Assembly: GCA_902791985.1 (NCBI GenBank)
Contig: CADAYD010000020.1
Location: 1-55,842, forward strand
Origin: an uncultured bacterium
Lineage (GTDB): Bacteria; Cyanobacteriota; Vampirovibrionia; Gastranaerophilales; Gastranaerophilaceae
Reading direction: 5' to 3'
Length of the DNA: 55,842 bases
The notes beneath the pieces are model-generated. The model saw nothing but the letters and a program-made list of their open reading frames with translations, made no database searches and had not been told where the DNA came from. A program made the translations under genes and the position numbers. Positions 8,577 through 55,842 of this stretch are shown piece after piece. The stretch's first letter is position 1. The number at the start of each line of letters is the position of its first letter.

Positions 8577-8579
8577 CTA

Positions 8580-9229: not shown

Positions 9230-9260
9230 TGAGCTTTTCTTCAAAGCAAAGGAGTAAATA

Positions 9261-10621: not shown

Positions 10622-10969
10622 ATGAAACAAAATAACGATATAGAACAAATTTTATTGAATGATGAAAAGTACGAAAAATTCATCAAAAGAAAACAAGAAA
10701 AAGAATTTAAAAAAATTCTGGAAATTGCGACAAAAAATGAATCGACAATTATTACGGATTTAAAAAAAATGTCCAAAGATAAACTTTTTTCTAAAAATGC
10801 AACATATTTTGTTATAAACAAAAATAGCAAAACAAGTTCGTATATAAATGGTATTCAAGCAGAATCATTTTTGGTTTCGCCGGCGGAACGGGAAAAATTC
10901 CTCTCTGGCAAAACGGATTCGTTTATTTATCAGGATAACTATATAAAATTTTACAAATACAAAGGCTAA
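10622..10969 (+). CDS. Hypothetical phage-region protein
   Basis: The product is 115 residues and highly charged. Residues 1-65 are Lys/Glu-rich and helical, and the rest looks like a small beta-strand domain (ATYFVINKNSKTSSYINGI). AAAGGA precedes the ATG. The next gene starts nine bases after the stop, so it probably belongs to the same transcript as the GNAT and portal genes. I do not recognise a family. Confidence 0.5.
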   Translation: MKQNNDIEQILLNDEKYEKFIKRKQEKEFKKILEIATKNESTIITDLKKMSKDKLFSKNATYFVINKNSKTSSYINGIQAESFLVSPAEREKFLSGKTDSFIYQDNYIKFYKYKG

Positions 10970-10978
10970 TTTTAGTTT

Positions 10979-34842: not shown

Positions 34843-35667
34843 ATGAAGAAATGGCGAAAATTACTGGGTTATTTTGTTCTGATATTCATTGCAATTAGCA
34901 TGTTATATCCGTTTTTTGCTATGTTGAATTTATCGTTTGTTCCAAACGGTGAAATTTTTAATCAGGGAGGAAAACTCTTTTATTCTCCATTAACTGTTGA
35001 TAATTACAAAAGTGTATTTGAAAAAATTCCGTTATGGCAATATTTTGCAAACAGTTTGTTTGTTGCTGTAGTTACAACTTTGGGACAGGTTGTTATAAGT
35101 GCATTTGCGGGGTACGCATTTGCAAGATTGCATTTTAAATTTCGTGACGGATTGTTTTTGATTGTCCTGATAACAATGCTGGCTCCTCCTCAGGTGAATA
35201 TTATCCCGTTGTTTTTTTTAATGCGTCAGCTAGGATGGATAAATACTTATCAGGCGCTTATTATTCCCGGACTTTTTGGAGGGTTTGGGATTTTTATGAT
35301 GCGACAATATTTCTTGGGTTTGCCAAAAGATTTGGAAGAATCCGCACGAATTGACGGTTGTAATATTTTTCAAATGTTTGTTAAGGTTATTCTACCGCTT
35401 TCTGTGCCTGTCATTTCAACTCTGGCGATATTCACATTCGTTTCAAGCTGGAATAGTTTTATGTGGCCGTTAATTGTTACAAATACCGAAAGTATGCGGA
35501 CTTTGCCTGTTGGGCTTGCAATTTTTAAAGGTAGTTTTAGAGAAATCACTTTGTGGGGAGATTTACTTGCGTGCTCTGTTATTTGTACTTTGCCTGTTAT
35601 TGGGGTATTTTTGCTTGGTAAAAAATATCTTATCAATGATATTATGCAAGGCGGAGTTAAGGAATAG
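34843..35667 (+). CDS. ABC sugar transporter permease (MalG/UgpE type)
   Basis: The product is 274 residues with six hydrophobic helices. The EAA loop reads LEESARIDGCNIFQMFVKVI, a good match to the consensus that contacts the ATPase. The final WNSFMWPLIVT block is typical of carbohydrate uptake permeases. It would import a sugar or glycerol-phosphate across the inner membrane with a partner permease, a binding protein and an ATPase, none of which is in the window. It is ten bases after kdsD and probably in the same transcript. Confidence 0.88.
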   Translation: MKKWRKLLGYFVLIFIAISMLYPFFAMLNLSFVPNGEIFNQGGKLFYSPLTVDNYKSVFEKIPLWQYFANSLFVAVVTTLGQVVISAFAGYAFARLHFKFRDGLFLIVLITMLAPPQVNIIPLFFLMRQLGWINTYQALIIPGLFGGFGIFMMRQYFLGLPKDLEESARIDGCNIFQMFVKVILPLSVPVISTLAIFTFVSSWNSFMWPLIVTNTESMRTLPVGLAIFKGSFREITLWGDLLACSVICTLPVIGVFLLGKKYLINDIMQGGVKE

Positions 35668-36023: not shown

Positions 36024-36082
36024 TAAGTTTTTACATGCGGAAGTATTAAATAAATTTTTACAAAAAATATTAGCTAATAATT

Positions 36083-39000
36083 ATGAGTAAAGAAGTCGGA
36101 AATAACAAGAATATTGATATTTCTCAGGGCATCCTTAGCAGACAGGATGTTATTTCCGATGAGCATTTATCCCAAAATGAAGAAAAAAATACGATGAAAA
36201 ATACACTTGACTCAACAGGAAGAGAGAGCACTACTTCCGTTGATTCGTCCTCAAGTGTTCAGAAAGGTTTTTCTTCAACAAAGCAGTCTGCAATGGTTCA
36301 GCGTGCAATGAAGTTTGCGGCTGTGCTGGCATTGGCTGTCGGAACTTCGGCTTTCGGCGCCGATAACGATTTGGCTACGGCGGGTTCTGCCGTTAATATC
36401 AGGGGATTAAGTGATCTTGATGCCGAAGAAGAAAAAGCTAAGCAAACTCCTGTAATGAACCAGCAAACAAAGCGTCGTTACACGTTGTTTATGCTCAAAC
36501 GCGGCTATGGCAGGGGCTCAGTGCCTACCAGTGCGGATGCTTCTGCATCTATCCGCAATCTTTCGAGCGGCTCAAATACTTTGAGTGTCAGTACCAAGTC
36601 TTTTGATGCGTTAAAAAGCAGTATTGTGCCGGAATCCGAAATGAGTTCGGTTTCCAAGCACGCTCTTGTTTTGGGTGGAGGGGATAGCCTCACTATTTCT
36701 TCCAGTGACATATCTGCTGATAGCGTTTCAATCATTGCAAATAGCGACATTAAGATTACAAAAAACCTTACTATCAATTTGTCGCCTGATGCTGCAGGGA
36801 TTGCGCAGAGCGTAAATGATGGCGTACTTGTTGATGACGGCAACGCACGTGTTGATGAGCAGATTATTGATTTTATCAACGCAAGTGCGAAGTTTGTCAG
36901 ACAGGACAAGGTTGTTGCTGATTCAGGTGCGACAAGACAGCAACTGCTGGTACCTCTGTTTAGAGCAGTGCCGGTTGAAAGCGGCTATGCTGAATTTACT
37001 CCGTCCCAACTTTCCCTAAATGTATGGAAGGGAATTGCAGGTACTCCGACCGGGTTTGCGGCGCCGACGAGCAAAGGCAGCTTAAAATGGACAAAGAGTG
37101 ACAAGTCAGGTACGAGCTCCTACACTTGGTCAGATACGACCACGTTCCCGTTGGCATCGACCATCAACTATACGGGTACATTGACCCGCGCATCGGGTGC
37201 AGTCCGTTTCTATGACTATGTTGGCGGCGAACAAACTCCAATGTACTACATCTACAACTATACCACTCCGGCAGGATATACTAGCTCATCAAGAGTAACC
37301 AGTATCGGCAGCGATATTATTGCTAAATACTTCTATAACCGGTCAGGGCAGACAAATGGTAGTGCTATCTACAACACAGGTACCGGCGGATACAATATTA
37401 CGGCTGATTTTATCAAAAATTCTGCAACTCAGAAAGGCGGAGCTATCTACAATACAGGTACTATTGGTAAGATAGCAGGTTATTTTATCGGGAATAGCCA
37501 AACAGCGACTGGACCAAGTAATGGCGGAGGTGCTATTTACAGTTCCGGTACAATAAAGTACATTGATGCTTCTTTTGTAGCGAATAGTTCTGCTTACGCG
37601 GGTGCTGCTATTTATCTTGGGAGTGGCGGTACAATTGATACTATCACGGGTGATTTTATCGGGAATAGTACGACTGATATTGGAGGTGGAATTAAAACCG
37701 ATAGTAATTCTTCAATAAAGTCAATCACAGGGAATTTTATTGGCAATACTTCTATCACAGGTGGAGGTATTTTTGCCAGCGGGACAATATCTTCAATTGC
37801 CGGTGATTTTATCGGGAATAAAGTGCTTGCAGGTTCACCCTTTGGCGGAGGTATTTATTCCGGTGGCGGAACAATTTATTCAATCGAGGGTGATTTTATC
37901 GAGAATAATGCCAATTTCAGCGGAGGAGGTATTTACCTCTATAATGCTACTGTATCGTCTATTGTAGGCGATTTTATCGGTAATACTGCTAATTCGGGAG
38001 CAGGGATTAGCATTGATTCTAATAATGCTACTATTTCATCTGTTGTAGGTAATTTTATCGAGAATGTAGGATCTGATTATGGAGGAGGGATTTATAACTA
38101 CGGAACAATTTCTTCCATTTTCGGGGATGTTGTTGGGAATAGTGCATCAGGTTTCGGAGGTGCTGGTATCCATAATACTAAAAATATTGCATTTATACAG
38201 GGTGATTTTATCGGAAACTCTGCATTTTACACAAATAATTATACAAGAGGCAGTGCTATATATAATGGAACAACTATTGCTATCTTCAATCAAATCATTG
38301 GGGATTTTGTCAACAACTATGCAAAAAATACCGGTAATACATCTCAAGGAGGTGCAGTATACAACGAAGGCAGGGTTGACTCTATCACGGGTGATTTTGT
38401 CGGGAATAGTGCGAGTGGTTCATCATCAGCTTTGGGAGGAGCTATCTATAATACCGGTTCAATCAGTTCGATTGTTGGGGATTTTGTAAGAAACAGCGCA
38501 ACAGTCAGTTCCGGTAGTAGTGCTGCAGGAGGTGCTATCTATAGCGCAGGCCGTGCCGCCGTTATTTCATCCGTTATAGGTGATTTTGTCAAGAACAATT
38601 CGGTTTATGCTGCAGGGATAAATAACTTATCTAGTTCAACTATTTCGTCTGTAATGGGTGATTTTGTTGAGAATACCGCTACTTATGCTACAGCGATAGA
38701 TAATAATGCTACAATGGGCTCTATAGTTGGTGATTTTGTCAGAAATACTACTACGCTTGACGGGATAATAAAAAATAGTGATACTATAGAATTTATCCAT
38801 GGTGATATTGTTGGGAATAGAGGGAATAAAAGTGCTGGAATTTATAATGTTTCAGGTACAATCGGGTCAATTGTAGGTGATTTTGTCGGGAATGTTAGTG
38901 AAAGTTTCTCTTCTGCTATCACGGCTGGAGATACAAATAATGGTGCTATAATAAATTCAATTAAAGGTGATTTTGTCTGGAATCATTCATCAGACAGTAC

Positions 39001-42000
39001 TGTTTTTGCCGGTAAAACTACTTCTATTGGATTAATCGAAGGTGATTTTGTCGGAAATATAGATAACTCAGGTGATTCTGTTATAATTCGTATTAAAGAG
39101 AGCGCAAATGTAGGTTCTATTAAAGGTGATTTTGTAAATAATACCGGTGTCGGGATTGCGATTAACCATGATAATACAATTGATTCAATTACAGGCGATT
39201 TTGTCGGAAATAGCGGCAAAAAAGGTGGAGGAATTGCTGTTTGGAGCGGAGGCTCAGCAACTATTGGAGATGTAACAGGTAATTTCTTCTTTAATACAGC
39301 TTCTCAAGGTGGAGGTGCTGTTTATGTTAGTAATGACACCTCGTCGGATTCATTTGATGGACATTTCAACGCCGATACTCAAGATATGTATTTTTATGGT
39401 AACAAGTATGGTTCTGCTTATAACGATATATATTCTACAACATCTTCAAGTGGAACAAATCTTTACCTCAATGCAGGGCGCGGCAAGTCGATGGTGTTCG
39501 GGGGTACTGTTACCGGTTCAGGCAGCAACAGTTACAAGCCTAACATAATCATCAACGACGGAACCGATGTGTACGGCGGAAATTATGTATTTACCGGGAT
39601 TTCGGGCAGTTTAGCACTGAGCATCAAAAACGGCGCAAATATCAGGTTTGACGGACTTCAGCAGAGTGACGGAACGATTTATCAGGCCGGATTGTATTTG
39701 GGAACAGACAGCACGTTTACCAATGACGCTAATGGCGGGTTTGTCAATTTAGCAGACTCATACGATGATTCTTATAATTTTGAGGCTCTCACGCTTAACA
39801 GTGACCTCAAAGTCGGGATTGATGTTGTTGATGGTGATTATGATGTATTAAATGCAACTTCTATTACCGATAATGGGCACAAAATTCTTATCGATTATAT
39901 CAATGTTACGGATGAGGCTGATGGCAATTCTTATGAGATTGCCAATTCCACATTAGCGCCCTATATCGACTTATCCAAGAATGTGAGAATCAACTCCGAC
40001 TACGAATGGGATGGGTACAAGGCCAGCTATGATGCGTCAACTGGCGATATTTCTTTTGAAAAAGTCGATACGGGCAGAGAAAACTTAGCCGGGTTCTTGT
40101 ATCAGCGTTCAGAAGAAGGCTCTTACGACATGGTTGGCGAAGAACAGATGCTGGTCGACGGAGACGATACTCTTTCCAATAAGGTTGTTAATGCTAACGG
40201 ATATTCGATTATAGGGAATTTACACAGAGGAATTCAGGTTTATGGCAGTGATTTTACAATAAATAACGGTAATTTGACCGGATTTAGGCGTGTTGAAGAG
40301 ACACAGAATCCAAGCGGCAATGTTGATATTTATGCAGGGAGTGCGATGTATAATGATGCCGGTGAAGTATACCTCAACAACACATCGATTACCAATAACG
40401 GGTACTACTCCAACCTCTCATTGACTACGACGGGCAGTAAGAGTGTCTACAATAACGGCGGGATTATCTATAACAACGGCACGCTGGGGAATGTCGGAGA
40501 TATTATAGCAAACAGTGTTTATGTTAAAGCGAATTCAACAGCAGGAAATGCTAATAACTATATCTATGGAGGAATTCTTCTCAATTATGGTACCGTAAGC
40601 GCTATAAATGGGGATATCAAAGGGAATAGTGTTACGGATGCTGTAAACGGGAGTAATGCAAATACATATACCCGAGGCGGGATTATTTTTAATGACAGTA
40701 CAATCGGGAATATCAACGGTGAAATCTCAGGCAACAGCATAACTTCAGCAGGCAATATCGGTGGCGGAATTTATTATGGTACTGACAGTCCATCTCGTCT
40801 TGGCAATATCACAGAAGGAGTCAAGAATAATATTATCACGGCTGCTAAATCTGTTTATGGCGGATTATTTGAGATCCAAGGAGAAGCTTATGTCGGGAAT
40901 ATCAACGGGATAAGGAATAATTTTATTACGGCTGGTGATGGTAATGTTTTAGGAGGATTATTAAATATATACCAAGCCGCAGATGTTGGGAATATCAACG
41001 GAATAGAGAATAACAGTATTTCCGGGAGAGGTGTTGGTGGAGGTCTAGTTGTTAACTACATTGAGAATGATCAAACAATTTCTATAGGTAATATTTACGG
41101 AGGGATTAATAATAACCTTATAACTTCTTCCCGTTATATTAATGGCGGATTGTTTGATAATGAAGCGACAGACCAAGATTCTACTATCCACATCGGCACA
41201 ATATACGGGATGAAGAATAATACGGTTACGGTTAATGATGGTGCTGGTAATAGTATTGGCGGCGGTCTTGTATACAATTATGCGTATTCTACAGATGCAC
41301 AGATTCAGATGGCTATCCAAGGAGATGTCAAGAATAATACGATTAGTAATACACAGGGTACTATCTGGGGCGGATTATTCCAAAACGTTATAGATGGTGA
41401 CGGGGATAATACATCTATCACTATCAATACTCATGATGTTTCGCTGAATAATAACAGTGTAACTGTAGGAGGAAACAATATTTATGGCGGATTAATCTAC
41501 AATCAAGGCGGAAATGAATCTCAAATTTCTGTCGGAAATCTGTCAAGTATTTCGAATAACACAATTAGCGCAGGAGATGAGATTTGGGGCGGATTAATTG
41601 CTAACAGTACTGAGGATGGGAATGGGGTTTTAGCAAATGTATCCATCGGAAATATCACTCAAGGGATTAAAAACAATACGGTTTCCGGTGATTCAATTTT
41701 CGGTGGTCTTATTAACCAAGGCGGCGACGGAGAAGACGCAACTCTTTCTATAGGAAAAATCAGCGAAATATCTAATAATACGGTCGAATCTGCAGCCAAC
41801 GTGACCGGCGGACTTGTAAATGTTGATGCTGAATCCTCAGGTCAAGATTTTCATATCGAAAATATCGGAAAAATCAAGAATAATACGGTCAGTGCGAATG
41901 GTACTTTGTCAGGCGGTCTTGTATATAACAAAGCAACCGAAAGTTCGAACACTTACATAAACATAGGCGAAATCAAGAATAATACGATAACAAATACTTC

Positions 42001-45000
42001 GAATAATTGGAATAGCGGTTCTCTTATTCAAAACTCAGGCTTGGGTGGGAATGCGACAATAAATTTGTCCGGAGATATTTCGTATAATACCGTTACTGAC
42101 GGAAATGAAGGCAAGGGTGACCATACTTCGCTTATCAGGAATTTGGCAACTAGCGCTGCGTCAACATTGAACATCAAAAATTCGGATATTAAATTCAACA
42201 ATATCAATACCTATTATTTCAGCGGGATAATTGATAATAGCCGTACACTCAGCGCTAATGCAACGGTTAACCTGACAGATACATCGATTGTCAACAACAC
42301 AATCACGACAGGAAGTTGGAACGGCGGAGTGTGGACTGCAGGTGCAGGAACGGTTGATGCAGGACTTATATATAACAATGCCACTGCCAATGTCTATGCG
42401 GTAAACAGGGATGTTGAATTTAAAGATAATACGATTAACAATAACGGAACAAAAACCGAAGCAGCGATTTATAACGGCAGCACAATGTCCCTAATGGCTT
42501 ACGGCAACCGCTCGATTACCATAGATAGCCCAATTACCGGCTCCGGAACACTGAATATTGGGCAGGCATCACAAATGGGGACTTATAGCGGAGGTTACCG
42601 CGGTGATGTGTATCTTAACGGGAATGTTACTCAAGACGTATTGAATTTGAATAACGGCCGTTTGATTCTCGGGTCGGGCGATTTGATTAACAATGTTTAT
42701 ACAGTCAATGTTAATGACTCCGGAACATCATCCACTCTCCCATCTACTCTTGATACAACAGACGGTATTATTGCCAATACAACTTTCAAGACTTTGACTT
42801 TGAACGACAATATGGGACTTGCTCTTGATGTCGACCTGACAAGTGGTACGGCAGACTTTTTCGATGCTACGACGTTCAATGCCAACGGACACAAGATTGT
42901 TATCAATAATATCAATGTATTAGGAGACATCAATGTATTAGGAGACAGTTCGGGTAAGGTTGATAAGGTTGGTAAGGTTGGTCTAATAAATATTGCAGAT
43001 TCGACATTGAAAGGCGCAATTGAGCTTGCTTCGACGGATTTTAGAGTAAACAGCAGCACGAAATCTTATGCTGTAGAGTATGCAAACGCCAGCACATACG
43101 GTACTTTGAGATTCTCAATTGGTACATACACTCTTGCTAATACTCTTGCATCTACTGCAGGTTCGCGCATTTACGGTATCGGAGTTTCGGGCGAAAATGT
43201 TACGGCTGATTTGGGTACGATGGGCGGAACAGGCGCGACAATGACCATAAATGGTAATGGTAATGCTATTTACGGTAACGGACACAGTGGTATTACTGTT
43301 GACGGCAGCAATGTTTTAAGGCTCGTAGATACAAATTGGGTTGATTTTGCTAAAACCGAAAGCACTACAAATCCTGCAAGTGCTTATACTTTTGCAGGTG
43401 GGGCTGTGTTTAAATTCGCACCTACCGGAACCGGAAGTTCTTTGGTTTTGAGTAATATCGGCGAAAATACTATTCGTGACAGCAGTTATCAGAGTACGGT
43501 TTCGAGTACATCGTCAGGCTCCAAAACCGGTAAAACATACGGCGGGTTGGTTTCTATAGATGAACAATCCAGTGCGTCGGATCAGGTTCATGACTCATTT
43601 AGTTTCAATTTCAGAAACAATACAATTAAAAACCTTGCAACAGCAACGTCGGGATTTGCTTATAACCTTCTTTACGGTGCGTTACTCGCTTTAAAATCAG
43701 GTACTCTCGGGGTTTTCTCAGGTGATGTTTCTGCAAATACTGTCACCGGTTCGGGCATCAGTAATTCAAATGCTTACTCACGTCTTTTTGGTTTGATGTA
43801 TGTTGGTGGCGGAGCCAAAACGGATATTCGCGGGGACTTTACCGCTAACAAAATTGACTCGATGTACAATGTATATGGCGGACTTATCCATAATGACAGC
43901 GGTAATATCGCTCAAATCTCCGGTGATATGATGGTAAATACTGTTTCGGGATATACTATTCGTGGAGGATTAATTGATAATGATGCCGGTACTGTAGGAG
44001 ATATTACCGGAAATATCATAGGAAATACTGCTACAGCATCTAATTATGTAACCGGAGGATTAATTTCCAGTATGGATTCCGCTTCTATCGGGGATATTAC
44101 CGGTGAAATTTCCGGTAATACGGTTACAAATACCGATACGGGTAGTATTTCAGGTGGTCTAATTTATAATCAGTATTCTACTATCGGAGATATTTCGGGT
44201 ATAGATAACAATACAATCAACGCTACTTCATCAGCTTCTATCTGGGGCGGCTTGATATACAACGAAACCGATGAGTCTGGTGATTCTGTTGTCGGAGATA
44301 TAGGCAGTCTTGATAATAACACTGTCACCGCAAATACGGGTACTATAAACGGCGGTTTAGTCTATAATGAAGCTTTTGGGGGTGTTGATGTTACCTTCGG
44401 TACAATTTCGAATATCAAAAACAATACCATAAAACGTACAGGAACAACAAGTGGTGTTATTCAAGGCGGATTGATTTATAACCTTGCTTATGATGAAAAA
44501 TCTGAGGCTACTCTCACTATCGCAGGCAAAGTGATAAATAACACAGTATCAAATGCGACTGGTAATATCTCCGGCGGGTTGATAAAGAATTTTATTGCAA
44601 GTGATGGTGTTGGTACAACCGTAACAATCAACACTCAAGATGCGTCGCTGGTGGCAAACACAGTTACTGCTTCATCAGGCGATATTGAAGGCGGATTGAT
44701 ATATAACTACAGCGATGGTGCTTATAGTGAACCATATGGTTTGGATTCAGAGGCGATAATCGGAAACCTCAATGCGATTTCTAATAATACAATTACCGCA
44801 TCAAACACAATTTCAGGCGGTCTGGTATATAATCATACAGATTCGGATGCTGCTCATGCAGTTGCAACTATTGGTAATATCGGAAGTATTACCGATAATA
44901 CGATTACTGCCGGATCAAATCTCCATGGCGGGTTAATATATAACGATGGGTATTCCAACACTTCAAGAATCGGAACTATTGGTAATATTAGTCGTAATAC

Positions 45001-47719
45001 TATTAATTCCCTTTACATTAATGGAGGATTAATTTCTAACTATGCCGATGATGACCAACATTATGGTACTTCCGGTGCTTATATAGGTAACATCAATCAG
45101 ATAGATAATAATACTATCGTTTCTTCAAATTATATTGAAGGAGGTCTAATAAACCATTATTCTGATGTTCAATCCGGTACTATGACTATCGGCAACATTG
45201 CAAACGGCATCATCAATAATACCATTATTGCCGGATCTCATGTCTACGGAGGCTTAATTCAGAACTCTACAGAGGGAGAGAATACAACCGTAACTATTGG
45301 AGATATTTCACTAATCAAAGGTAATGAAGTTAGTGCTGCCGGCTTAGTCGGAGGCGGGTTACTGAGTTCTTATGCATATGCTGATGATTCGGAAGCACGA
45401 ATCGGTAATATCAACTCGATATCAGAAAATACGGTTTCAACTTCCCCGGAAAACGAAACCTTAATTCAAGGCGGGTTGCTAAATCTGGATTCGGAATCCT
45501 TAGTAGCGATTGGTAATATTGGCAAGATTTCCGGAAATACAGTAACTAACACCCACGGTACAATCGAGGGCGGGATTATCTATAGTAATGGGCATATAGA
45601 ATGGGGTGGTATTGGTTCCATTGATAATAACTCAGTCATATCAAATAATGATGCTATTACAGGTGGTATTATCAATAACCGTTCAGATAATTTTTATAAT
45701 ATCGGGTCAATCAGTGGCAATACCGTATTAAGTAATGAAGAACTTCGAGGCGGAGTGATTTATAACGATAATGAAATGGGCGTTATTACCAGTATCAATT
45801 CAAATACGGTTTTATCTACGGGTGCTATCTATGGCGGAGTGATTCAAAATAATGGCTCCATGGAGGACCTCAGAGGTATTGCAAACAATTATATTGAAAA
45901 TATTAATGGTAATGCTATCGAAGGCGGGGTGATATACAATACCGGCGGAATGTATTTTGGATCTGGAGGGACTATCTCAGACAACGTTGTCAAAACAAGC
46001 GATGGTATAACAGGCGGGGTTATTTATAACACTGCTACGATTGATTTGTGCGGTGCTGCTCTTGCATACAACGAAATCTCCGGCAGCTCAATCACCGGTG
46101 GTCTAATGTATAACTATGAAGATACTGCCGGCAAAACGGCGGCAATAAGTGATATCGGTGACCTGCGCGGAAATATCATAACTTCCTCCGGCACTCTCAA
46201 CGGCGGTCTAGTGTATAACACAACAGGTTATAACGGTAGCGGATCTACAAGAACTGCAACCATCGGTACCATATCTTCTGTGACAAACAATCAGATTGCC
46301 GCAAGTGGGAATATTCAAGGCGGATTGATATACAATGATAACACTCAAGTCCAAGGCGTGGCAAATATTGGTAATATAGGTGATATTAGAGGGAATACTG
46401 TAACTACCGGCGGTACTGTTACCGGAGGATTAATTCATAATTCCTCTGGTCAAGGTTCTCCGGCACATGTCGCTACGATTGACTCTATTTCAGATAATGA
46501 AATTACTGCAACCGGAACTATCTCAGGCGGATTAATCAACAATAACAGAGTCTCCGGAGGAAGCGGCACTTTAGGTAATATTGGTGATATCACAAACAAC
46601 TCTGTATCCTCGGGAGGTCAAATCACTGGTGGTCTGATAAGATATTATATTTATCAGGGTTCTGCTACAAACGGCACTTTGGGTATAATTTCAGGGAATA
46701 CTGTATCTGCAAATACCTATCTTTCTGGTGGGATTATCTATTATGATGGTGTTTCAAATATAAGTCTTACAAATAATATAACCGGAAATACAATTACTGC
46801 GGGAACTCAAATTCAAGGCGGGTTAATACGTCATACAGGATCTTCCAGCTATGGCACAGGGACTCTAAGCCTTGAAAATATGACTATTAATAATAACTCA
46901 TTGACTTCAAATGGCACTGTTTTGGGAGGGCTAATTCATAATGCTATTGGAATGGGTGGTACAGAAACAGCAAGTATTTCAGGTTCTTCAATAACAGGCA
47001 ATGTTGTTTCCGGTACTACGATAGATGGCGGTGTGATTTCTAATACAAGTGCTTATGGTGCTACCGCAATATTTAATATTACAGATTCTTCTATAACAAA
47101 CAACTATATCTTATCAACAGGTACGGCTACCGGTGCATTGATTAAAAACTTTTTAGATCAGAATGGTACTGATGCAATCCTCAACATCACTGCTGATAGT
47201 GCGAATGTCGACATCACAGGCAACAAACTCAACCCGACCATTAATCGCGACGGTTCTGGCAACATCACATCTGTCACCGGCGGAACCGCGGCTGATATCT
47301 ATTCGTCTGCAAAATTTAACCTCAAAGCAAAAGACGGCCATACTATCACCATCGATTCCCCAATCACTGATGCTGCTACCCATGCAGGCACAATGACAAT
47401 TGGTAACACAGGTACTGAGACAGCTTACACAGGTACGGTTGATTTTAATAACACCGTTACCCAAAATGCATTGAATATTAACTCGGGCACAGTCAATGTT
47501 GCAGCCGGCAACCTCAAGATAACCAATGCAATTTCTAACGCAGGAACTTTGAACTTGAGTGGTACAAGTGCATTAACAAGCGCAATCACCGGCGCCGGTA
47601 CAACTAACGTTAAAGATAGCTTCTCGACCGCAAAAGATATTTCTCAAGGCACATTTACTGTTGCAAGCGGTAAGACATTTACAACAAGCGGCAATCAATC
47701 GCAAATACAGGCACCTTGA
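36083..47719 (+). CDS. Giant beta-helix repeat surface protein, part 1
   Basis: This open frame codes for 3,878 residues. It starts with a 70-residue hydrophilic extension, then Met71 with a classic signal core (MKFAAVLALAVGTSAFGA). The passenger begins near 94. Residues about 405-1085 are repeats of the type GDFIGN, GGGIYN, GTISSI. Residues about 1450-2010 and 2560-3680 are a second type (GNI, NNTI, GGLIYN). Between lie longer beta-rich blocks such as NGANIRFDGLQQS. These short repeats predict a right-handed beta-helix, as in autotransporter and Pmp-like adhesins. No strong ribosome site precedes the ATG. The frame ends in CAG GCA CCT TGA, while the repeat text continues in another frame, so this is the front part of a longer gene. 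No C-terminal barrel is seen here. Confidence 0.75.
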   Translation: MSKEVGNNKNIDISQGILSRQDVISDEHLSQNEEKNTMKNTLDSTGRESTTSVDSSSSVQKGFSSTKQSAMVQRAMKFAAVLALAVGTSAFGADNDLATAGSAVNIRGLSDLDAEEEKAKQTPVMNQQTKRRYTLFMLKRGYGRGSVPTSADASASIRNLSSGSNTLSVSTKSFDALKSSIVPESEMSSVSKHALVLGGGDSLTISSSDISADSVSIIANSDIKITKNLTINLSPDAAGIAQSVNDGVLVDDGNARVDEQIIDFINASAKFVRQDKVVADSGATRQQLLVPLFRAVPVESGYAEFTPSQLSLNVWKGIAGTPTGFAAPTSKGSLKWTKSDKSGTSSYTWSDTTTFPLASTINYTGTLTRASGAVRFYDYVGGEQTPMYYIYNYTTPAGYTSSSRVTSIGSDIIAKYFYNRSGQTNGSAIYNTGTGGYNITADFIKNSATQKGGAIYNTGTIGKIAGYFIGNSQTATGPSNGGGAIYSSGTIKYIDASFVANSSAYAGAAIYLGSGGTIDTITGDFIGNSTTDIGGGIKTDSNSSIKSITGNFIGNTSITGGGIFASGTISSIAGDFIGNKVLAGSPFGGGIYSGGGTIYSIEGDFIENNANFSGGGIYLYNATVSSIVGDFIGNTANSGAGISIDSNNATISSVVGNFIENVGSDYGGGIYNYGTISSIFGDVVGNSASGFGGAGIHNTKNIAFIQGDFIGNSAFYTNNYTRGSAIYNGTTIAIFNQIIGDFVNNYAKNTGNTSQGGAVYNEGRVDSITGDFVGNSASGSSSALGGAIYNTGSISSIVGDFVRNSATVSSGSSAAGGAIYSAGRAAVISSVIGDFVKNNSVYAAGINNLSSSTISSVMGDFVENTATYATAIDNNATMGSIVGDFVRNTTTLDGIIKNSDTIEFIHGDIVGNRGNKSAGIYNVSGTIGSIVGDFVGNVSESFSSAITAGDTNNGAIINSIKGDFVWNHSSDSTVFAGKTTSIGLIEGDFVGNIDNSGDSVIIRIKESANVGSIKGDFVNNTGVGIAINHDNTIDSITGDFVGNSGKKGGGIAVWSGGSATIGDVTGNFFFNTASQGGGAVYVSNDTSSDSFDGHFNADTQDMYFYGNKYGSAYNDIYSTTSSSGTNLYLNAGRGKSMVFGGTVTGSGSNSYKPNIIINDGTDVYGGNYVFTGISGSLALSIKNGANIRFDGLQQSDGTIYQAGLYLGTDSTFTNDANGGFVNLADSYDDSYNFEALTLNSDLKVGIDVVDGDYDVLNATSITDNGHKILIDYINVTDEADGNSYEIANSTLAPYIDLSKNVRINSDYEWDGYKASYDASTGDISFEKVDTGRENLAGFLYQRSEEGSYDMVGEEQMLVDGDDTLSNKVVNANGYSIIGNLHRGIQVYGSDFTINNGNLTGFRRVEETQNPSGNVDIYAGSAMYNDAGEVYLNNTSITNNGYYSNLSLTTTGSKSVYNNGGIIYNNGTLGNVGDIIANSVYVKANSTAGNANNYIYGGILLNYGTVSAINGDIKGNSVTDAVNGSNANTYTRGGIIFNDSTIGNINGEISGNSITSAGNIGGGIYYGTDSPSRLGNITEGVKNNIITAAKSVYGGLFEIQGEAYVGNINGIRNNFITAGDGNVLGGLLNIYQAADVGNINGIENNSISGRGVGGGLVVNYIENDQTISIGNIYGGINNNLITSSRYINGGLFDNEATDQDSTIHIGTIYGMKNNTVTVNDGAGNSIGGGLVYNYAYSTDAQIQMAIQGDVKNNTISNTQGTIWGGLFQNVIDGDGDNTSITINTHDVSLNNNSVTVGGNNIYGGLIYNQGGNESQISVGNLSSISNNTISAGDEIWGGLIANSTEDGNGVLANVSIGNITQGIKNNTVSGDSIFGGLINQGGDGEDATLSIGKISEISNNTVESAANVTGGLVNVDAESSGQDFHIENIGKIKNNTVSANGTLSGGLVYNKATESSNTYINIGEIKNNTITNTSNNWNSGSLIQNSGLGGNATINLSGDISYNTVTDGNEGKGDHTSLIRNLATSAASTLNIKNSDIKFNNINTYYFSGIIDNSRTLSANATVNLTDTSIVNNTITTGSWNGGVWTAGAGTVDAGLIYNNATANVYAVNRDVEFKDNTINNNGTKTEAAIYNGSTMSLMAYGNRSITIDSPITGSGTLNIGQASQMGTYSGGYRGDVYLNGNVTQDVLNLNNGRLILGSGDLINNVYTVNVNDSGTSSTLPSTLDTTDGIIANTTFKTLTLNDNMGLALDVDLTSGTADFFDATTFNANGHKIVINNINVLGDINVLGDSSGKVDKVGKVGLINIADSTLKGAIELASTDFRVNSSTKSYAVEYANASTYGTLRFSIGTYTLANTLASTAGSRIYGIGVSGENVTADLGTMGGTGATMTINGNGNAIYGNGHSGITVDGSNVLRLVDTNWVDFAKTESTTNPASAYTFAGGAVFKFAPTGTGSSLVLSNIGENTIRDSSYQSTVSSTSSGSKTGKTYGGLVSIDEQSSASDQVHDSFSFNFRNNTIKNLATATSGFAYNLLYGALLALKSGTLGVFSGDVSANTVTGSGISNSNAYSRLFGLMYVGGGAKTDIRGDFTANKIDSMYNVYGGLIHNDSGNIAQISGDMMVNTVSGYTIRGGLIDNDAGTVGDITGNIIGNTATASNYVTGGLISSMDSASIGDITGEISGNTVTNTDTGSISGGLIYNQYSTIGDISGIDNNTINATSSASIWGGLIYNETDESGDSVVGDIGSLDNNTVTANTGTINGGLVYNEAFGGVDVTFGTISNIKNNTIKRTGTTSGVIQGGLIYNLAYDEKSEATLTIAGKVINNTVSNATGNISGGLIKNFIASDGVGTTVTINTQDASLVANTVTASSGDIEGGLIYNYSDGAYSEPYGLDSEAIIGNLNAISNNTITASNTISGGLVYNHTDSDAAHAVATIGNIGSITDNTITAGSNLHGGLIYNDGYSNTSRIGTIGNISRNTINSLYINGGLISNYADDDQHYGTSGAYIGNINQIDNNTIVSSNYIEGGLINHYSDVQSGTMTIGNIANGIINNTIIAGSHVYGGLIQNSTEGENTTVTIGDISLIKGNEVSAAGLVGGGLLSSYAYADDSEARIGNINSISENTVSTSPENETLIQGGLLNLDSESLVAIGNIGKISGNTVTNTHGTIEGGIIYSNGHIEWGGIGSIDNNSVISNNDAITGGIINNRSDNFYNIGSISGNTVLSNEELRGGVIYNDNEMGVITSINSNTVLSTGAIYGGVIQNNGSMEDLRGIANNYIENINGNAIEGGVIYNTGGMYFGSGGTISDNVVKTSDGITGGVIYNTATIDLCGAALAYNEISGSSITGGLMYNYEDTAGKTAAISDIGDLRGNIITSSGTLNGGLVYNTTGYNGSGSTRTATIGTISSVTNNQIAASGNIQGGLIYNDNTQVQGVANIGNIGDIRGNTVTTGGTVTGGLIHNSSGQGSPAHVATIDSISDNEITATGTISGGLINNNRVSGGSGTLGNIGDITNNSVSSGGQITGGLIRYYIYQGSATNGTLGIISGNTVSANTYLSGGIIYYDGVSNISLTNNITGNTITAGTQIQGGLIRHTGSSSYGTGTLSLENMTINNNSLTSNGTVLGGLIHNAIGMGGTETASISGSSITGNVVSGTTIDGGVISNTSAYGATAIFNITDSSITNNYILSTGTATGALIKNFLDQNGTDAILNITADSANVDITGNKLNPTINRDGSGNITSVTGGTAADIYSSAKFNLKAKDGHTITIDSPITDAATHAGTMTIGNTGTETAYTGTVDFNNTVTQNALNINSGTVNVAAGNLKITNAISNAGTLNLSGTSALTSAITGAGTTNVKDSFSTAKDISQGTFTVASGKTFTTSGNQSQIQAP
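37300..39340 (+). repeat. Beta-helix repeat array A
   Basis: The array has about 25-30 degenerate units of roughly 75-100 bases, coding for I-x-GDF-[IV]-x-N followed by GG-[AG]-I-Y-N and GTI. The same type returns at 51400-54060. Confidence 0.8.
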
Positions 47720-49211
47720 AGATAACCGGAGCAACTGCAAATGCAGGTACAATCAGCGAAACGGGCACACTTGACCTTGACAACAACTTCACCAACAATG
47801 GTACAATCACTCAAGGTACAGTTGACCTTGCAAGCGGTAAGACCTTAACCAATAGTGCAAGTAAGACAATTACGGTATCTTCAACTCTTACAAACGCAGG
47901 AACAATCGCAAACGCAGGCACCTTGAAGATAACCGGAGCAACTGCAAACGCAGGCACAATCGACGGAACGGGCACACTTGACCTTGACAACAACTTCACC
48001 AACAACGGTACAATTACTCAAGGCACAGTTGACCTTGCAAGCGGCAAGACCTTAACCAACAGTGCAAGTAAGACTATCACTATATCTTCAACACTTACTA
48101 ATGCAGGTACAATTTCTAACGCAGGCACCTTGAAGATAACCGGCGCAACTGCAAACGCAGGTACAATCAGCGGAACGGGTACACTTGATCTCGACAACAA
48201 CTTCACAAATAACGGTACAATTACTCAAAGTACAATTGACCTTGCAAGCGGCAAGACCTTAACCAATAGTGCAAGCAAGACTAACTATACTATTACTGTC
48301 TCTAAAGCCCTCAAAAATTCCGGCACAATCTCTAACGCAGGCACCTTAAAGATAACAGGCTCAACTGCAAATGCAGGCACAATCAGCGGAACGGGTATAC
48401 TTGACCTTGATAACAACTTCACCAACGATGGTACAATTACCCAAGCAATAGTTGACCTTGCAAGCGGCAATACCCTTACCAACAGTGCAAGTAAGTCTAT
48501 TACAGTCAACACGACATTAACTAATGCCGGAACAATTACAAACGCAGGCTCGTTGTATGTCAAAGGTGCAAACCAAACTCTCGGCGCGATTAACGACGCA
48601 TCAACCGCGACCGGTACGTTGTACTTACAGGGTAGCGGAACCAAGACCGCAAATTCTGCGATTACTCAAAGTGCTGTCCAAATCGCAAGTGGCGTAACAC
48701 TAGATAACAATGCAGCATTGACAGCAGCAATCACCAATGCCGGTACCGTATATTCAACTGCTGCAAATCTTAAAGGTAATGTTACAAATACCGGCACATT
48801 GTACTTAGAGGGTGGAACTTATGGCGCTTATACAATCAGCGGCGCCGGAACAACTATTCTCAATGCTGATACAACCAATAGCGGCACAATTACTCAAGGT
48901 ATTTTAAATACAAATTCAAAAACTCTTACAAATAGTTCCGGCAAGACTATCACTGTAAGTTCGATTTTGACCAACTCCGGTACAATCGCAAATTCAGGCA
49001 CATTAAAGATAACCGGCTCAACCGCAAACGCAGGTACAATCAGCGGAACGGGCACACTTGACCTTGATAATAACTTCACTAACAACGGTACGATTACTCA
49101 AGGTACAGTTGACCTTGCAAGTGGTAAGACTTTAACCAACAGTGTAAGTAAGACTATCACGGTATCTTCGACTTTAACTAACAGTGGTACGATTGCAAAC
49201 GACGGCACAAT
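47711..49211 (+). repeat. 207-bp tandem repeat array C
   Basis: Near-identical units begin at 47711, 47918, 48125, 48341, 48548, 48998 and 49205. Four of the six spacings are exactly 207 bases (69 codons) and one is 216. The unit encodes GTLKITGATANAGTI, DLDNNFTNNGTITQ and DLASGKTLTNSASKTI. High DNA identity means recent expansion. Confidence 0.9.
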
Positions 49212-49518
49212 GTATGTTCTTGGCAATACAAGCCTTGGTTCAATCACCGGTACAGGTACGTTGCAAACGTTTAATGATTCCTCTACTTCGTTGTCCAATG
49301 TAACTGTTAATAAGGCTATTACCCAAAATAAGGTTATTAATAGTTACGGTTATTTATATGCTAATGCAGATATCAATGCTGAAATAGAAAACCGTTCTAT
49401 TTATGGTCTTTATGGTAGTGCAGATTACTTTAAAGGTAATATCGCTAACGTCAAAGGCACTAATGCCATAGGTGCGACAACAACGACCTTTACCGGTGGT
49501 ACTTATGGTGCTGATTAA
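47716..49518 (+). CDS. Giant repeat protein, part 2 (after frame break 1)
   Basis: This frame continues the repeat text of part 1 in the next register, overlapping its last bases. It codes for 600 residues of array C units and ends in TYGAD and TAA at 49516-49518. It has no ribosome site of its own and starts at a TTG within a repeat, so it is a fragment of one long gene, not a separate one. The register changes near the tandem AATCAATC (47693-47700). Confidence 0.65.
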   Translation: MKITGATANAGTISETGTLDLDNNFTNNGTITQGTVDLASGKTLTNSASKTITVSSTLTNAGTIANAGTLKITGATANAGTIDGTGTLDLDNNFTNNGTITQGTVDLASGKTLTNSASKTITISSTLTNAGTISNAGTLKITGATANAGTISGTGTLDLDNNFTNNGTITQSTIDLASGKTLTNSASKTNYTITVSKALKNSGTISNAGTLKITGSTANAGTISGTGILDLDNNFTNDGTITQAIVDLASGNTLTNSASKSITVNTTLTNAGTITNAGSLYVKGANQTLGAINDASTATGTLYLQGSGTKTANSAITQSAVQIASGVTLDNNAALTAAITNAGTVYSTAANLKGNVTNTGTLYLEGGTYGAYTISGAGTTILNADTTNSGTITQGILNTNSKTLTNSSGKTITVSSILTNSGTIANSGTLKITGSTANAGTISGTGTLDLDNNFTNNGTITQGTVDLASGKTLTNSVSKTITVSSTLTNSGTIANDGTMYVLGNTSLGSITGTGTLQTFNDSSTSLSNVTVNKAITQNKVINSYGYLYANADINAEIENRSIYGLYGSADYFKGNIANVKGTNAIGATTTTFTGGTYGAD

Positions 49519-50183
49519 ATAGCGGTAAGACATTCACCAACAGCGGTTCAACCAGTGTTACAGGTACTTTAACTAACTCCGGTACAATCACCAACAGCGG
49601 CTCGTTGACGATTCAGGGCGGGAACCAAACTCTTGGCTCAATCAATGACGCTGAAACCCCGACCGGCACATTGTACTTACAAGGCAGCGGAACTAAGACT
49701 GCAAACAGTGCGATTACTCAAAGCGCAGTCCAAATCGCATCCGGCGTAACCTTAGACAATAATGCAATGCTCAATGCAGCAGTACTTAACAAAGGTACAT
49801 TGTATACAAATGCTTCCAACCTTGGCGGACTGGTTGGGAACGACCATGGACTTGTATATCTTGAAGGCGGTTCATTGAATCAACCGATTAGGGCAAATCT
49901 TGTAAATCAGGCGCTTGGTGCCGGTTCTGTTACTGTTACGGCAGATACGACAGTTAATGCATTTTTATTAGCCGGTAATACTTTAACCATAAATGATTCC
50001 GTTAAAATAACTAATAATTCAAATATATATGTTGGTCAACTTGTAAATAATGGCACTATACAGAATGATGATTGGATAGGTTTTTATGGCGGTACAAGTA
50101 ATCTTGGTACGGTCACCGGTACAGGGCAAATATTAGTTGGTTATGATTCGTCAAGCTTTGCACAAAACCTAACTGTTGATTAA
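49518..50183 (+). CDS. Giant repeat protein, part 3 (after frame break 2)
   Basis: Beginning with NSGKTFTNSGSTSV, this frame carries on the same style of text (GSLTIQGGNQTLGSI, TLYLQGSGTKTANSA) up to NLTVD and TAA at 50181-50183. An internal ATG/TTG-type start at 49605 is possible but has no ribosome site. The segment TLYLQGSGTKTANSAITQ also occurs in part 2, another sign of one repetitive gene. Both of the last two breaks fall in a GATTAAA heptamer. Confidence 0.6.
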   Translation, partial: NSGKTFTNSGSTSVTGTLTNSGTITNSGSLTIQGGNQTLGSINDAETPTGTLYLQGSGTKTANSAITQSAVQIASGVTLDNNAMLNAAVLNKGTLYTNASNLGGLVGNDHGLVYLEGGSLNQPIRANLVNQALGAGSVTVTADTTVNAFLLAGNTLTINDSVKITNNSNIYVGQLVNNGTIQNDDWIGFYGGTSNLGTVTGTGQILVGYDSSSFAQNLTVD

Positions 50184-50184
50184 A

Positions 50185-53100
50185 CTTCTAAACTCCGGCA
50201 CATTGAATATCAATAGTGGAACTTTGAGTTCAACCATTGGTAATTACAACTCAACCGTTGGTACAACAAATATTAATGGCAATGTTATTGCAAATGCGAA
50301 TATTGGTGGCAACACGGTTAACTTAACCAGTGGAACCCTTACTTTGAATAACGGTACGTTCTCATCAATCGCAGGTTTAACAACTGCAGGCGGTCACTTA
50401 TCTACAATTAACAACACAACCAGCGCAACCGTTCTTGGCGCAGTGGCACTCAATAGCGCAACAAACTTCAACATCGATGTTGCACTCGGTACTGCTACAG
50501 CCGACACTTTCAGCGCATCAAGCGTCACAGGCTCATCAAGTATAACCTTAAAGACTATCAATTTGGTATCTGATTCGAGCGCAAACAGTCTTGACTTAAC
50601 ATTGACAACAACCAATGCGCTCAAATCGGCACTTCAACTGAGTTCAAATGTTGTTTATACCGGTGTAAGAAATTCTTATGACTCTGTGACTTTGAATAAC
50701 GGTGTTTTGAGTTTCCGCAGAACCGTTGGAGATGCAACATTAGATGCTGCAAACACTGCAAGCAGAGCATATTTAAGTGGTGCACACGACGTAATCGAAC
50801 TTTCAAGCACAACGGTTGACAACGATAAGATTGCCGTTACAATCGGCGCAACGACCTACTATTTTGAGGCTCCGGAAGGTCAGGACGGCGTATTGCGTAA
50901 CCTTGTAAACACAGGCTATGACGCACTTAGAGTCGCAGATAGCGCAACGGGCGCAGTATTCAAGGTTGGTAGCACATATTATACTTACGACCCTGCATAT
51001 TTGCCTTACAGTGCTTGGTATTCAACCGATGGTACTTCAACGGATTACAATTATACGTTAACTGATGGCACAACAAGAACCTTCAAGAATATCAACATTA
51101 AGCCTGCAAAACTGGGCACTTCGACATATATTAACTGGGCAGAATCAGGCAGTGAAGTTGTTGCTCCTGTTTGGAACGGTACAACCAATACTGCAACAGG
51201 CACAATCCAGGTTGATTTGCCGCATACATCGATTAGCGGTGAACAAGTCGTTGACAATACTCCGCAAACCAAGTATTACACCTATACTTACACAATGCCT
51301 GATGGGTATACGGTAGTACAAGATTATACTAAGACTGCCACGACATCTGCAGCAGGCACAAGTTCATCGCCAAAAATCCCTGCAACAGGCGGTGGAGTTG
51401 TATACAATTCCGCTTCCGGTGTATCATTTAATGGCAATACTTATGTAAATAACGTTCTGACCTTAAATCCAACCCACGCGTGGAATCATATGGGCGGTGG
51501 CGCTATAGAAAATGTTGGCACAATAACAAGTATTAATTCCGACTTCATTAATAACGGTGTTATAGCCAGCACTGCTGCAAGTTTGAACACAAGAAGTGTC
51601 GGCGGTGCTATATTCTCCAATAACGGTACAATTAATGCTATTGACGGTAGTTTCATCGGTAACTATATTTCTACTGCGGATTATGCTTATGGTGGTGCGA
51701 TAGGCACTTATGGCGGTACGATAGGCAGCGTAGTCGGTGATTTCATATCCAACCATGTTGAAAGTTCCGGTGCTAATACTATAGGTGGTGCGGTAATATT
51801 GGTTGGCACTAACTTGACCTCTTTGACCGGTGATTTTGTCGGCAACTGGGCATCTTCGTCAGCAGGATATGCATACGGTGGCGCACTGGAATCTGAAGGT
51901 GCAGCAAAAGTCATCTCCATAAATTCTAACTTCATCGGTAACCATGCTGAGTCTTCAGGGGGTGTGGCTTACGGTGGTGCGATATACTGGGCTAATACAA
52001 CAAACGGTCTGAAAACGAGCATCACAGGTGATTTCATCGGCAACTGGGCATCTTCGTCTAAGAGTACTTCATATGGTGGTGCGTTGTTCCAGAACGGTAA
52101 TAACACCAAGTTAGGCAGCATAACAGGCGACTTTATCGGTAACTATGTATCGACCAGTGCAGGAACTCATACTTACGGTGGCGCATTAGCCTTATCTGGT
52201 ACAAATGCTACCATCAACACTATTACCGGCGACTTTATCGGTAACTATGCTTATACAAACAAAGCTTCAACGTATGCATATGGCGGTGCGATTTATAAAT
52301 CAGGTACAAGTTCGTTAATCAACCAAATTACCGGCGACTTCATCGGCAACTATGCTAAAACGATGCTGGGTAGCTCATACGCGTATGGTGGTGCAATATT
52401 TAATACAGGTACAGATTCAAAAATCAACAAGATTACAGGTAATTTCATAGAAAACCATGTTGATTCTGTTAAATATCCTGTATATGGTGGTGCGATTTAT
52501 AACAGCGGTACCCGTGCACAGGTCAATGTTGACGGAAACTTTATCAACAACAACATAACTTCTAATACCCATTATGTTTATGGTGGTGCAATCTTTAATA
52601 GCGGTACTGATGCAAAAGTTACGGTAAACGGCGACTTTATCGGCAACAGTGCTATTTCAAAAGGCACGAGCCAATATGCAGTTGGTGGTGCGTTCTATAA
52701 TGAAGGTACAAATGCGGCTGTAAACGTTGTGGGTAATTTCATCGGCAACTATGCACAAACCTCAGGAAATTATGCAGGTGGTGGTGCGATTTATAATACT
52801 GCAAGAGCCAAGATAAATTCTATTGTAGGGAATTTCACCGGTAACTATGCTAAAACTACAGGTAGTTCCTATGCTAACGGTGGTGCAATATTCAACTACA
52901 GTACTGCAGCTATCGAAAGTATCACAGGTGACTTCACCGGAAACTATGCTGATTCATTGAAATCTTATGCTCTAGGTGGTGCAATAGGAAATTCAACAAA
53001 AACTTTGATAGGGGACATTGACGGTGATTTTATCGGCAACTATGCTACTACTGCTGCAAACTCTTATGCGTTTGGTGGTGCGATATACAATTACAGTTCT

Positions 53101-55842
53101 TCAATGACAAATGTTTATGACACAAGAGAAGTTGTCACAATTACAAAATACACAGCAACTCATAAAGATGCTGAAGGTAACACAGAAACTATTATATACT
53201 GGACAAAAGCGCAAAAAGATGTAATGGACGCTGCTCTGGCTGCAGGCAAAAAAGTTGTAATCTATAATGCTTCATCCAGCCAAACAAACAGAACGGATGC
53301 GCAGTGGCAAACTATTCAAGACAATATTGAAGCCGGGACCTATTTGACTGTCAACCCTGAGTCTTCATTGCAGGCAAGCGATTACTGGAAGGCTACATCG
53401 GGCGGCGCTCTCACCCACAACAACCTGTTCCAAGATAACTACGCACAGGCTCTCGGCTCAGGCGCATCAACCTACGCTCAAGGTGGTGCGATACGTAACT
53501 CCGGTGATGCATATCTTGGGGATGTTGTTGCAAACTTCCAAGGCAACTATGTTTATGCGCCGAATTCAACTGCTACCGCAACATATTATGATACGGCAGG
53601 TGGTGCTATTGCCAATTTCAACTACAATAATAACCTTGCTGCCGAAATACCGTCTATTACAGGGAACTTTACCGGCAACTGGGCTTATGGTAAGAACTAT
53701 ACATACGGTGGTGCGATACTTAACCAGGCATTTTCAAACTCTGCTTCATATGCTCCGGTGGCTACTATCGGCTCTATCGAGGGTGACTTCTCCGGAAACA
53801 GTGCGTATTCTGCTTCTTATGGCGCATATGGCGGTGCGATATTCAACTATGTAAACGGTGCAACAGCAAGAGCAACAATCGATTTAATCAAAGGGAACTT
53901 TACAAATAACTATGTTTCCGGCTCTTCTATGGGTCATGGTGGTGCGATAGCTATTTATAACAGTGTAAATACCCCTGCAAATGCATCTGTCACTATTGTT
54001 GACTCGAACTTTACAGGTAACGCTGCAAAAACAGATGGTGGTGCTATACACAACCACTACGGTACAATCAACCTCATTGCTGATGCTGCAAACGTAACAT
54101 TTAGCAACAACAAGATCGGCATAACCGCAACCCTTGATGAAAAAGGGAAAATTACCTCAGTTTCAGGCGGCAGCCTCAACGATGTCTATAATGATGCAAC
54201 CTTTAACCTCAAAGCAAAATCGGGCAAATCCATCACATTTGCCGGCACAATCACCGATGCATCGACTCCGACCGGTACAATGACTATCGGTAATGTTGGC
54301 GAAGAAACCGCTTACACAGGTACGGTCGACTTCAACAATACTGTTACTCAAAAAGCGTTGAATATCAACTCAGGCAGCGTATATATCGGCGCAGGCAATC
54401 TTAACATTACAAATGGTGTGGCTAACGCAGGTACATTGAACCTTGAATCCGGTACCCTCGCTGCGAAGAACGCAATTTCAGGCGCAGGCACGACTGTCAT
54501 TGTTAGCGGCACTTCATCGGCGCCGACAATTGTCATTTCTAACGCAACTATCTCACAAACAGGCGGTTTGAGTATCGGTTCATCAACCACGAACAAATAT
54601 GCAAACTTCACTTCGAACGCCGCAATCACCGGCAATGTTACCAACTACGGTACATTTGATAACAATGCGATGGTTACGGGTAATATTGATGTCAAATCAG
54701 GCGCTAAATTGTATACCAATGGTGATAATGTCAGCGGTTATATCTATAACCGTCAAGGCGCAACAGTTTATTTAGAAGGCGGTACGGTTGCACATAATCT
54801 TACTCAAACTGGTAGCACTGCAATTGGCGGCAGTGTCATAGTTACTGCGGATACTACAAATAATGGTTTATTATATGCAGGTAGTTTGACGGTTAATGAA
54901 GGTGTAACCCTTACGGCTCAAGGTGCTCTTGATGTAGTAAATTTGAATAACAGTGGTTTAATTAACAATAATGCTACATTTTACTTCTTAAATTCTTCTT
55001 CTAACACCGGTAAAATATCCGGTACAGGGCGTATATTACTATATAACACAGGAACCTCAAATGTAACAATAAATGATACTGTTCATCAGAGTAATGTTGG
55101 TATACAATCAAAAAGTACTCTCAATATCAATGATGCAAGTTTGTTAACGACTACTGCTGCAACAGGTATTCAAAACTCCGGTACAGTCAATATCTTGGGT
55201 GGTACCTTGTCTTCAAAAATTGGTAATTATGATTCTGTTGTGGGTACAACATACATCAAGGGTAATGTTACGGCGAATGCTAATATTTCAGGCAATACTG
55301 TTAACTTAACATCAGGAACATTAACTCTTAATAGCGGCACATTTGATTCAATCGCAGGCTTAACAACCGCAGGCGGCCACTTATCTACAATTAACAACGC
55401 AACATCTGCAACCGTTCTTGGCGCAGTGGCACTCAATAGCGCAACCAACTTCAACCTCGATGTCGCTCTTGCTGCCGGCGAAGCAGATACCTTCAGCGCA
55501 AGCGGCACTCCTACCGGCTCAGGTACAATTACAATCAGCAGCCTGAATATGGTTGGCGGCGGCAAATCGGGCTCTGTCAATGTATTTGACTCTAACTTGA
55601 AAGGCAAAGCACAGTTAGCAAGCGGTTTGAACACTTACACTTCCGGCGGATATAAATATAACGTATCTTATGACTCATCTACCGGTAATTTGAATTTTAC
55701 CAACGCAAACCTCTATTCAGCAGTTCATGATGCGACAGCAACCAGAACTTACACAATGACCGCAGATGAACCGGCACTCGGCGCAGGCTTGACCGGCTAC
55801 GGCACAATGGACGGCACAACCTTGACAATCAACGGCGGCGGG
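50185..55842 (+). CDS. Giant repeat protein, part 4, runs off the window
   Basis: From 50185 the frame beginning LLNSGTLNINSG is open without a stop to the right edge, 1,886 codons, so it is partial at both ends. It begins with a block (TVLGAVALNSATNF) that recurs at the far end. Then comes a non-repeat block near 50640-51400 (SAWYSTDGTSTDYNYTL, YTYTMPDGYTV), then a second array A (51400-54060; GGAIYN, GDFIGNYA). Then there are blocks that copy 47190-47640 (ATFNLKAKSGKSIT, YTGTVDFNNTVTQ). No autotransporter barrel has been reached. It is the continuation of parts 1-3. Confidence 0.7.
51400..54060 (+). repeat. Beta-helix repeat array A', second block
   Basis: Units coding YGGAIYN, GT and GDFIGNYA recur about every 95-120 bases, more regular than at 37300-39340. 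A non-repeat island (53105-53400) interrupts it. Confidence 0.8.

Follow-up and report, generated by a model that had tools for sequence, protein, structure and literature searches.

Positions 36083–55842 (+ strand) of contig CADAYD010000020.1, from an uncultured bacterium of the Gastranaerophilaceae, very probably hold the N-terminal three-quarters or so of one gene for a giant type Va-like autotransporter, whose remaining part, beyond a gap, forms the first 6,613 bases of a second contig of the same assembly (C17). The window analysed here is the whole of the former contig (C20, 55,842 nucleotides), which belongs to a 1.9-Mb draft genome of 34 contigs that is 97.8% complete (G000). An earlier note made from the sequence of this window had seen a real giant surface protein; by weight of evidence it is a type Va-like autotransporter, joined across two contigs by inference and unusual in its length, lineage and tail.

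Within the window the gene spans 19,760 bases, or 6,586 codons, that are coding-like throughout and lie in four successive frames, the last of which runs off the contig end at exactly 55842, as the earlier note had said. The listed open reading frames (ORFs) have 3,878, 600, 192 and at least 1,889 codons, or 3,878, 610, 220 and 1,890 codons when each is read from its frame change. All three frame changes, near 47.70, 49.52 and 50.18 kb, fall inside 2.5 kb, and in place of the one ORF exceeding 6,500 codons that had been proposed, the longest has 3,878. A chance open frame of that size is ruled out by comparison with 100 shuffles of the 19.7 kb, none of which had an open frame longer than 192 codons; the antisense strand reached at most 159. 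Separate genes within the window are likewise ruled out: ORFs 2–4 lack any signal-like segment within their initial 200 residues, so that they read as pieces of one gene, and the same kinds of repeat carry on through them.

To locate C-terminal parts we used profile A1, made from 17 barrels of the order matched in a PF03797 search (13 of the 17 members match PF03797). With A1, barrels turn up in 44 of the 46 genus genomes; C17 of G000 is matched at E = 9.6e-94 and contig C15 of G049 (RUG12313) at E = 3.5e-108. Pfam annotation undercounts autotransporters in this genus, with PF03797 missing most barrels. The barrel on C15 is the only one in G049. G000 has three matches: C17, a complete 1,514-codon autotransporter with its own signal on C21, and a remnant on C8 (G000:C8:121147-121497) that retains 115 residues of barrel with a TGA inside. 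C17 and C15 are built alike: in each, a passenger frame is open from base 2 and continues into the barrel and a lysine-rich tail (frames of 2,204 and 3,094 codons, respectively), and both are followed by the same 5′-nucleotidase-like gene (Pfam on the G000 copy). A profile of giant barrels (A2) aligned to A1 in hhalign with probability 100 and E = 2.1e-78. Passenger and barrel also occur in one frame in smaller members of the genus, of which G015:C9 (6,185 codons) and G044:C32 (5,248 codons), like G059:C1 (4,817 codons), run unbroken from a signal-like start to the barrel. Searched with the initial 1,500 residues of C17, with the final 949 in the window and with the N-terminal part, G000 gave no match on any other contig, and these same comparisons found no paralogous giant elsewhere in G000. 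By exclusion and synteny, we infer that C20 is joined to C17, giving minimum lengths of 6,586 + 2,204 = ~8,790 codons in G000 and, for the corresponding pieces, 8,438 + 3,094 = 11,532 codons in G049. The earlier note had predicted type V secretion and made its case hang on a secretion domain following; with barrels on C17 and in orthologs, such a domain would indeed follow, on another contig.

Comparison across the genus supports this arrangement. Flanks of the ABC-transporter permease gene just upstream were compared in 20 of the 42 genomes that carry it. At this locus G049 has one open frame of 8,438 codons from start to contig end, and its residues 1–970 align with window residues 1–831 at 30.5% identity; N-terminal pieces occupy the same locus in G002 and G016. 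G048 has the permease and an AsmA-like gene (labelled by eye and without a Pfam match), then other genes up to one that we take to be ComM-like, and the giant gene is absent there. The same ComM-like gene comes next after the barrel pieces of G002 and G004, and because these flanks match the G048 order, the giant gene would sit between the permease/AsmA-like genes and the ComM-like gene in G002 and G004. The orthologous barrel (profile A2, >700 bits) is present in 7 of the 46 genomes (G004, G002, G049, G017, G012, G000 and G045). Barrels of G049, G002 and G004 are 67–68% identical to that of G000, and the C-terminal pieces of G000 and G002 share 51% identity over 2,392 columns. Crude Nei–Gojobori ratios of non-synonymous to synonymous substitution rates (dN/dS), which cover C-terminal pieces only, were 0.21, 0.15, 0.26 and 0.14 in four pairs of pieces and 0.07 in one barrel pair, one dS exceeding 1 so that the ratio there is rough; these values indicate purifying selection on the C-terminal pieces.

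Several observations weigh against a single autotransporter gene. PF03797, which picks up a match in 24 of the 98 order genomes, finds nothing in G000; the giant barrel is without a Pfam match in the three giant C-terminal pieces searched, even at E 10; and an AlphaFold model of an orthologous barrel (6 sequences) gave a predicted local distance difference test score (pLDDT) of 39, so the barrel call rests on homology. The window ORFs have no match among Pfam or NCBIfam families, the final 600 bases of C20 share not one 17-mer with the 12 kb of C17 that were compared, all seven orthologs with a barrel run off a contig edge, leaving none whole in one contig, and several orthologs have frame breaks, as the window has at three places. 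With the barrel profiles A1 and A3, sequences of solved structures gave no match at E 0.1, and the contig ends of the pairs C20/C17, C7/C15 and C33/C26 do not overlap.

Assembly errors in repeats would account for the frame changes, or else recent insertions or deletions that are real. If all three are real, the locus may be a decaying gene, once a giant autotransporter, from which no full-length protein is now made. We consider this unlikely. Three changes in 2.5 kb fit decay, as do breaks in G016 and in the C-terminal parts of RUG12313, RUG14818, RUG12020 and RUG11085, but 610, 220 and 1,890 codons past the breaks are free of further stops, the ortholog C-terminal parts are under purifying selection and the 8,438 codons of G049 are unbroken. 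Moreover, the first break, near 47.70 kb, sits at the edge of a 207-base repeat, and repeats are known to mislead short-read assembly. Frame breaks recur among orthologs of the giant gene (loci L085, L137, L138, L139 and L141), mostly within repeats, and there reflect either assembly error or phase variation. A phase-variable giant, in which repeat slippage or recombination would shift the frame and leave the full filament to a fraction of the population, would account for breaks in repeat-rich stretches of several orthologs, the lysine-rich tail included. It is an improbable explanation for the window: none of the three breaks shows a simple short-unit tract, two of them lie away from exact repeats of ≥18 bases, and a mixed-strain short-read assembly yields the same picture. 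Very improbable is that two unrelated genes are involved, with the window passenger ending soon past 55842 without a barrel, as a secreted or two-partner filament, and C17 being the end of another autotransporter, for although no sequence links C20 to C17, one gene is supported by the same pairing in G049 with its single barrel and by the two pieces of G002, whose flanking genes lie near each other in G048 where the site is empty, while no other headless or tailless piece was found in G000 and Pfam detects no two-partner domain.

The passenger in the window is rich in glycine (13.8%), threonine (12.3%), asparagine (11.4%), serine (10.8%) and isoleucine (9.0%; together 57%), with one cysteine, a composition of the β-solenoid kind. 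Repetitive β-rich coding text does extend over 36083–55842 as the earlier note described, but not in the one style it reported: there are at least three repeat types, FxxN/GGAI (period ~26 or 33), GGLIxN (~35) and, in frame 2, an NxGT repeat of 69 residues. FxxN…GGA[ILVF] pairs number 12 in frame 1 and 23 in frame 4, against a shuffled mean of ≤0.3 each. Structure prediction of a single block, which the earlier note had suggested as a check on its β-helix, bore the idea out. A model of 37391–38353, from an alignment of this block plus six other window blocks (two overlap the block or each other), is all β with a pLDDT of 92.1 and a predicted template modelling score (pTM) of 0.92. Foldseek with this model gave nothing below E 0.001 (best E 0.057); on re-alignment with VIA-align the best match was the Vag8 passenger (7akv; Z 23.5, 284 aligned, root-mean-square deviation 3.2, 11% identity). 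Tailspikes, epimerases and lyases come next, at Z 18–23, and phage tailspikes and enzymes acting on polysaccharides lie just 1 to 3 Z below Vag8. As modelled, this 321-residue block is a right-handed β-helix, the passenger fold of type Va proteins, and the Z ranking shows fold, not function.

The gene starts with MSK[ED] in four genomes with alike bases before the start codon, and because of this start and the conserved upstream element the N-extension is genuine and not a mis-called start. Its length is 77 residues, close to the 70 first estimated, and 84 (G049), 95 (G016) and 121 (G002) residues precede the core in orthologs, where the sequence also varies. The G002 extension holds a short in-frame repeat element of 22 bases (G002:C33:50929-50950), found at 2 places in G002 (≤2 mismatches) and nowhere in G000. 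Judged by hydropathy alone, the signal is a hydrophobic core after a basic stretch, kept in 4/4 N-terminal loci, with a Kyte–Doolittle mean of 1.88 in the window compared with ≤1.14 in the first 200 residues of ORFs 2–4. The earlier note had likened the extension to known extended signals of type V secretion, a likeness that our comparison does not support. Signals such as that of EspP, in the available text of PMC2805444, total 55 residues, of which the N-domain takes up 26. Compared by eye, the extended signal peptide region (ESPR) group has a short conserved extension of ~26 residues, whereas that of the giant has 77 residues and is low-complexity, of other composition and variable among orthologs.

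At the other end, giant tails extend 210–467 residues past the last barrel strand in six of seven cases and 83 in the seventh (hRUG901), with ~207 residues in the G000 C17 tail; other barrel frames (44 caught by the first pattern) have 2 to 111. A last strand at or near the C terminus is usual in type Va but not required, according to the part of PMC3419190 available, and the giants do not have it. All seven giant genes end in related sequence, in three (RUG12313, RUG14818 and RUG12020) in another frame than the barrel. Among 31 distinct tails at least 20 residues long, 16 contain the motif [KR][KREV]?[VIL][ILV]K[QSA][LMVYI], where shuffles predict 0.3, an optimistic figure since the pattern was written after looking. 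Lysine-rich post-barrel tails with a conserved motif near the C terminus were seen at L122 (6000–6613), L124, L137 and L138. From barrel topology, the tail would lie in the periplasm.

Other type V classes fit less well. For type Vb, Pfam finds no two-partner secretion (TPS) domain at the N terminus, in a search that left a TpsB partner gene outside its scope; for type Vc, Pfam shows no YadA-type anchor, the three giant C-terminal pieces having no match at E 10. Chlamydial Pmp proteins share repeated FxxN and GGA[ILV] motifs with the giant and nothing more: it is several times longer and has no match to Pmp models in Pfam or NCBIfam. The Bordetella Vag8 passenger has the same right-handed β-helix and is a single short passenger. 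Inverse autotransporters have the opposite domain order to the C-terminal barrel and extension of the giant. The periplasmic wall-binding part of YeeJ-type members, which binds peptidoglycan in the available text of PMC5595812, is a possible parallel for its tail. BigE, with 10,429 residues named the largest autotransporter in 2012, resembles the giant in its N-terminal signal, very long repetitive β-rich passenger and C-terminal barrel, and differs in its named β-proteobacterial relatives and EstA-type barrel (PMC3419190, in part), whereas the giant is cyanobacteria-related, with a long tail and a barrel missed by the Pfam autotransporter model. The G049 ortholog, at ≥11,532 codons, would exceed BigE. 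Judged only against that source, as far as available, and literature length searches, in which BigE was the sole length record found, the earlier statement that the protein is longer than nearly all known passengers agrees with our results.

A 16S gene was matched in 4 of the 46 genomes of the genus and none was found in G000. The G060 16S is 80–81% identical to three cyanobacteria and 71–79% to ten others, and an unrooted tree (archaeon left out) splits two queries and three cyanobacteria from the rest at 99.9/100, while a haloarchaeon added as outgroup gave the tree no clear root; on this sequence evidence, the 16S of genus mates groups with Cyanobacteria. An alphaproteobacterial origin is unsupported by the 16S gene L144, from which the ALF968 target is missing, and by the 16S tree. 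Named relatives come from RUG and RGIG genome sets, one titled roe deer rumen, RUG presumably denoting rumen genomes, and host association rests on these relatives. Lineage and origin together accord with bacteria of the Gastranaerophilales type. A literature search returned no autotransporter paper for Gastranaerophilales; one review mentions autotransporters and Melainabacteria once each, and among the papers listed for Vampirovibrionia and related names one, on lysine methylation, contains the word; the available portions of the Vampirovibrio paper PMC4451040 do not contain the word ‘autotransporter’, and those of PMC4793230 and PMC11573180 describe none from this lineage. Table 1 lists the features of the locus. 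Well upstream of the giant gene, window positions 2011–13235 hold a prophage-like cluster with an endolysin, an amidase, a major head protein (E = 1.3e-53) and a head–tail adaptor.

Table 1 Coordinates of the giant gene, its parts and its upstream marker in the window
Feature	Position	Strand	Description
ABC-transporter permease (PF00528)	34843..35667	+	Locus marker just upstream; present in 42/46 genus genomes
Conserved upstream element GCGGAAGTAT...	36037..36082	+	Directly 5′ of start codon; common to three orthologs (4/4 N-terminal loci compared)
N-extension	36083..36313	+	77 hydrophilic residues ahead of hydrophobic core
Signal core FAAVLALAVGTSAFGA	36314..36361	+	Residues 78–93, strongest hydrophobic stretch; none of the other three ORFs has one near its start
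First frame	36083..47719	+	3,878 codons, start MSKEVGNN; signal then β-helix passenger; G049 ortholog aligns residue 1 to 1
FxxN/GGAI block, period ~26	37391..38353	+	321 residues, modelled as right-handed parallel β-helix
GGLIxN-type repeats, period ~35	43580..47182	+	Autocorrelation of residues 2500–3700
Second frame	47686..49518	+	610 codons open; 69-residue NxGT repeats
Third frame	49521..50183	+	220 codons open; shares 55% identity with a portion of the second frame
Fourth frame	50173..55842	+	Open for 1,890 codons, as far as the contig end; holds another FxxN/GGAI block

Together these features suggest how the protein would be made and displayed. The long N-extension and Sec-type signal, recognized by hydrophobicity, would take the chain over the inner membrane, after which the C-terminal barrel, as in its family, would insert in the outer membrane via the β-barrel assembly machinery (BAM) and the passenger would exit C-end first. 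Outside, it would fold as a right-handed β-helix, as modelled for the one block and by extension for the rest. With a β-helix rise of 0.48 nm per turn and ~27 residues per turn, the helix would be ~150 nm long. The tail past the last strand would stay periplasmic and might tether the protein, leaving a long surface filament that may serve attachment or cell–cell contact in the rumen. The role of main adhesin in a host-associated bacterium that the earlier note suggested is unproven.

A broader proposal is tentative, and we hold it to be rather doubtful as a whole: non-photosynthetic relatives of Cyanobacteria may have a separate autotransporter branch in which a periplasmic Lys/Val/Pro-rich post-barrel extension, with the motif K[VI][ILV]K[QS][LM] (often ~25 residues from the end), holds filaments of 9,000 to >11,000 residues to the cell wall, the giant being the extreme of the branch and the longest autotransporter known. 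Contig-edge cuts in all seven barrel-bearing genomes suggest why such genes are easily overlooked. If the reading of the two contigs as one giant autotransporter gene is right, the upper size for one-protein secretion would rise to ~11,500 residues or more, raising the question of how BAM-dependent export manages a chain of that length, and the type V family would gain a gut lineage related to cyanobacteria and rich in autotransporters, a barrel mostly missed there by PF03797 and a post-barrel extension.

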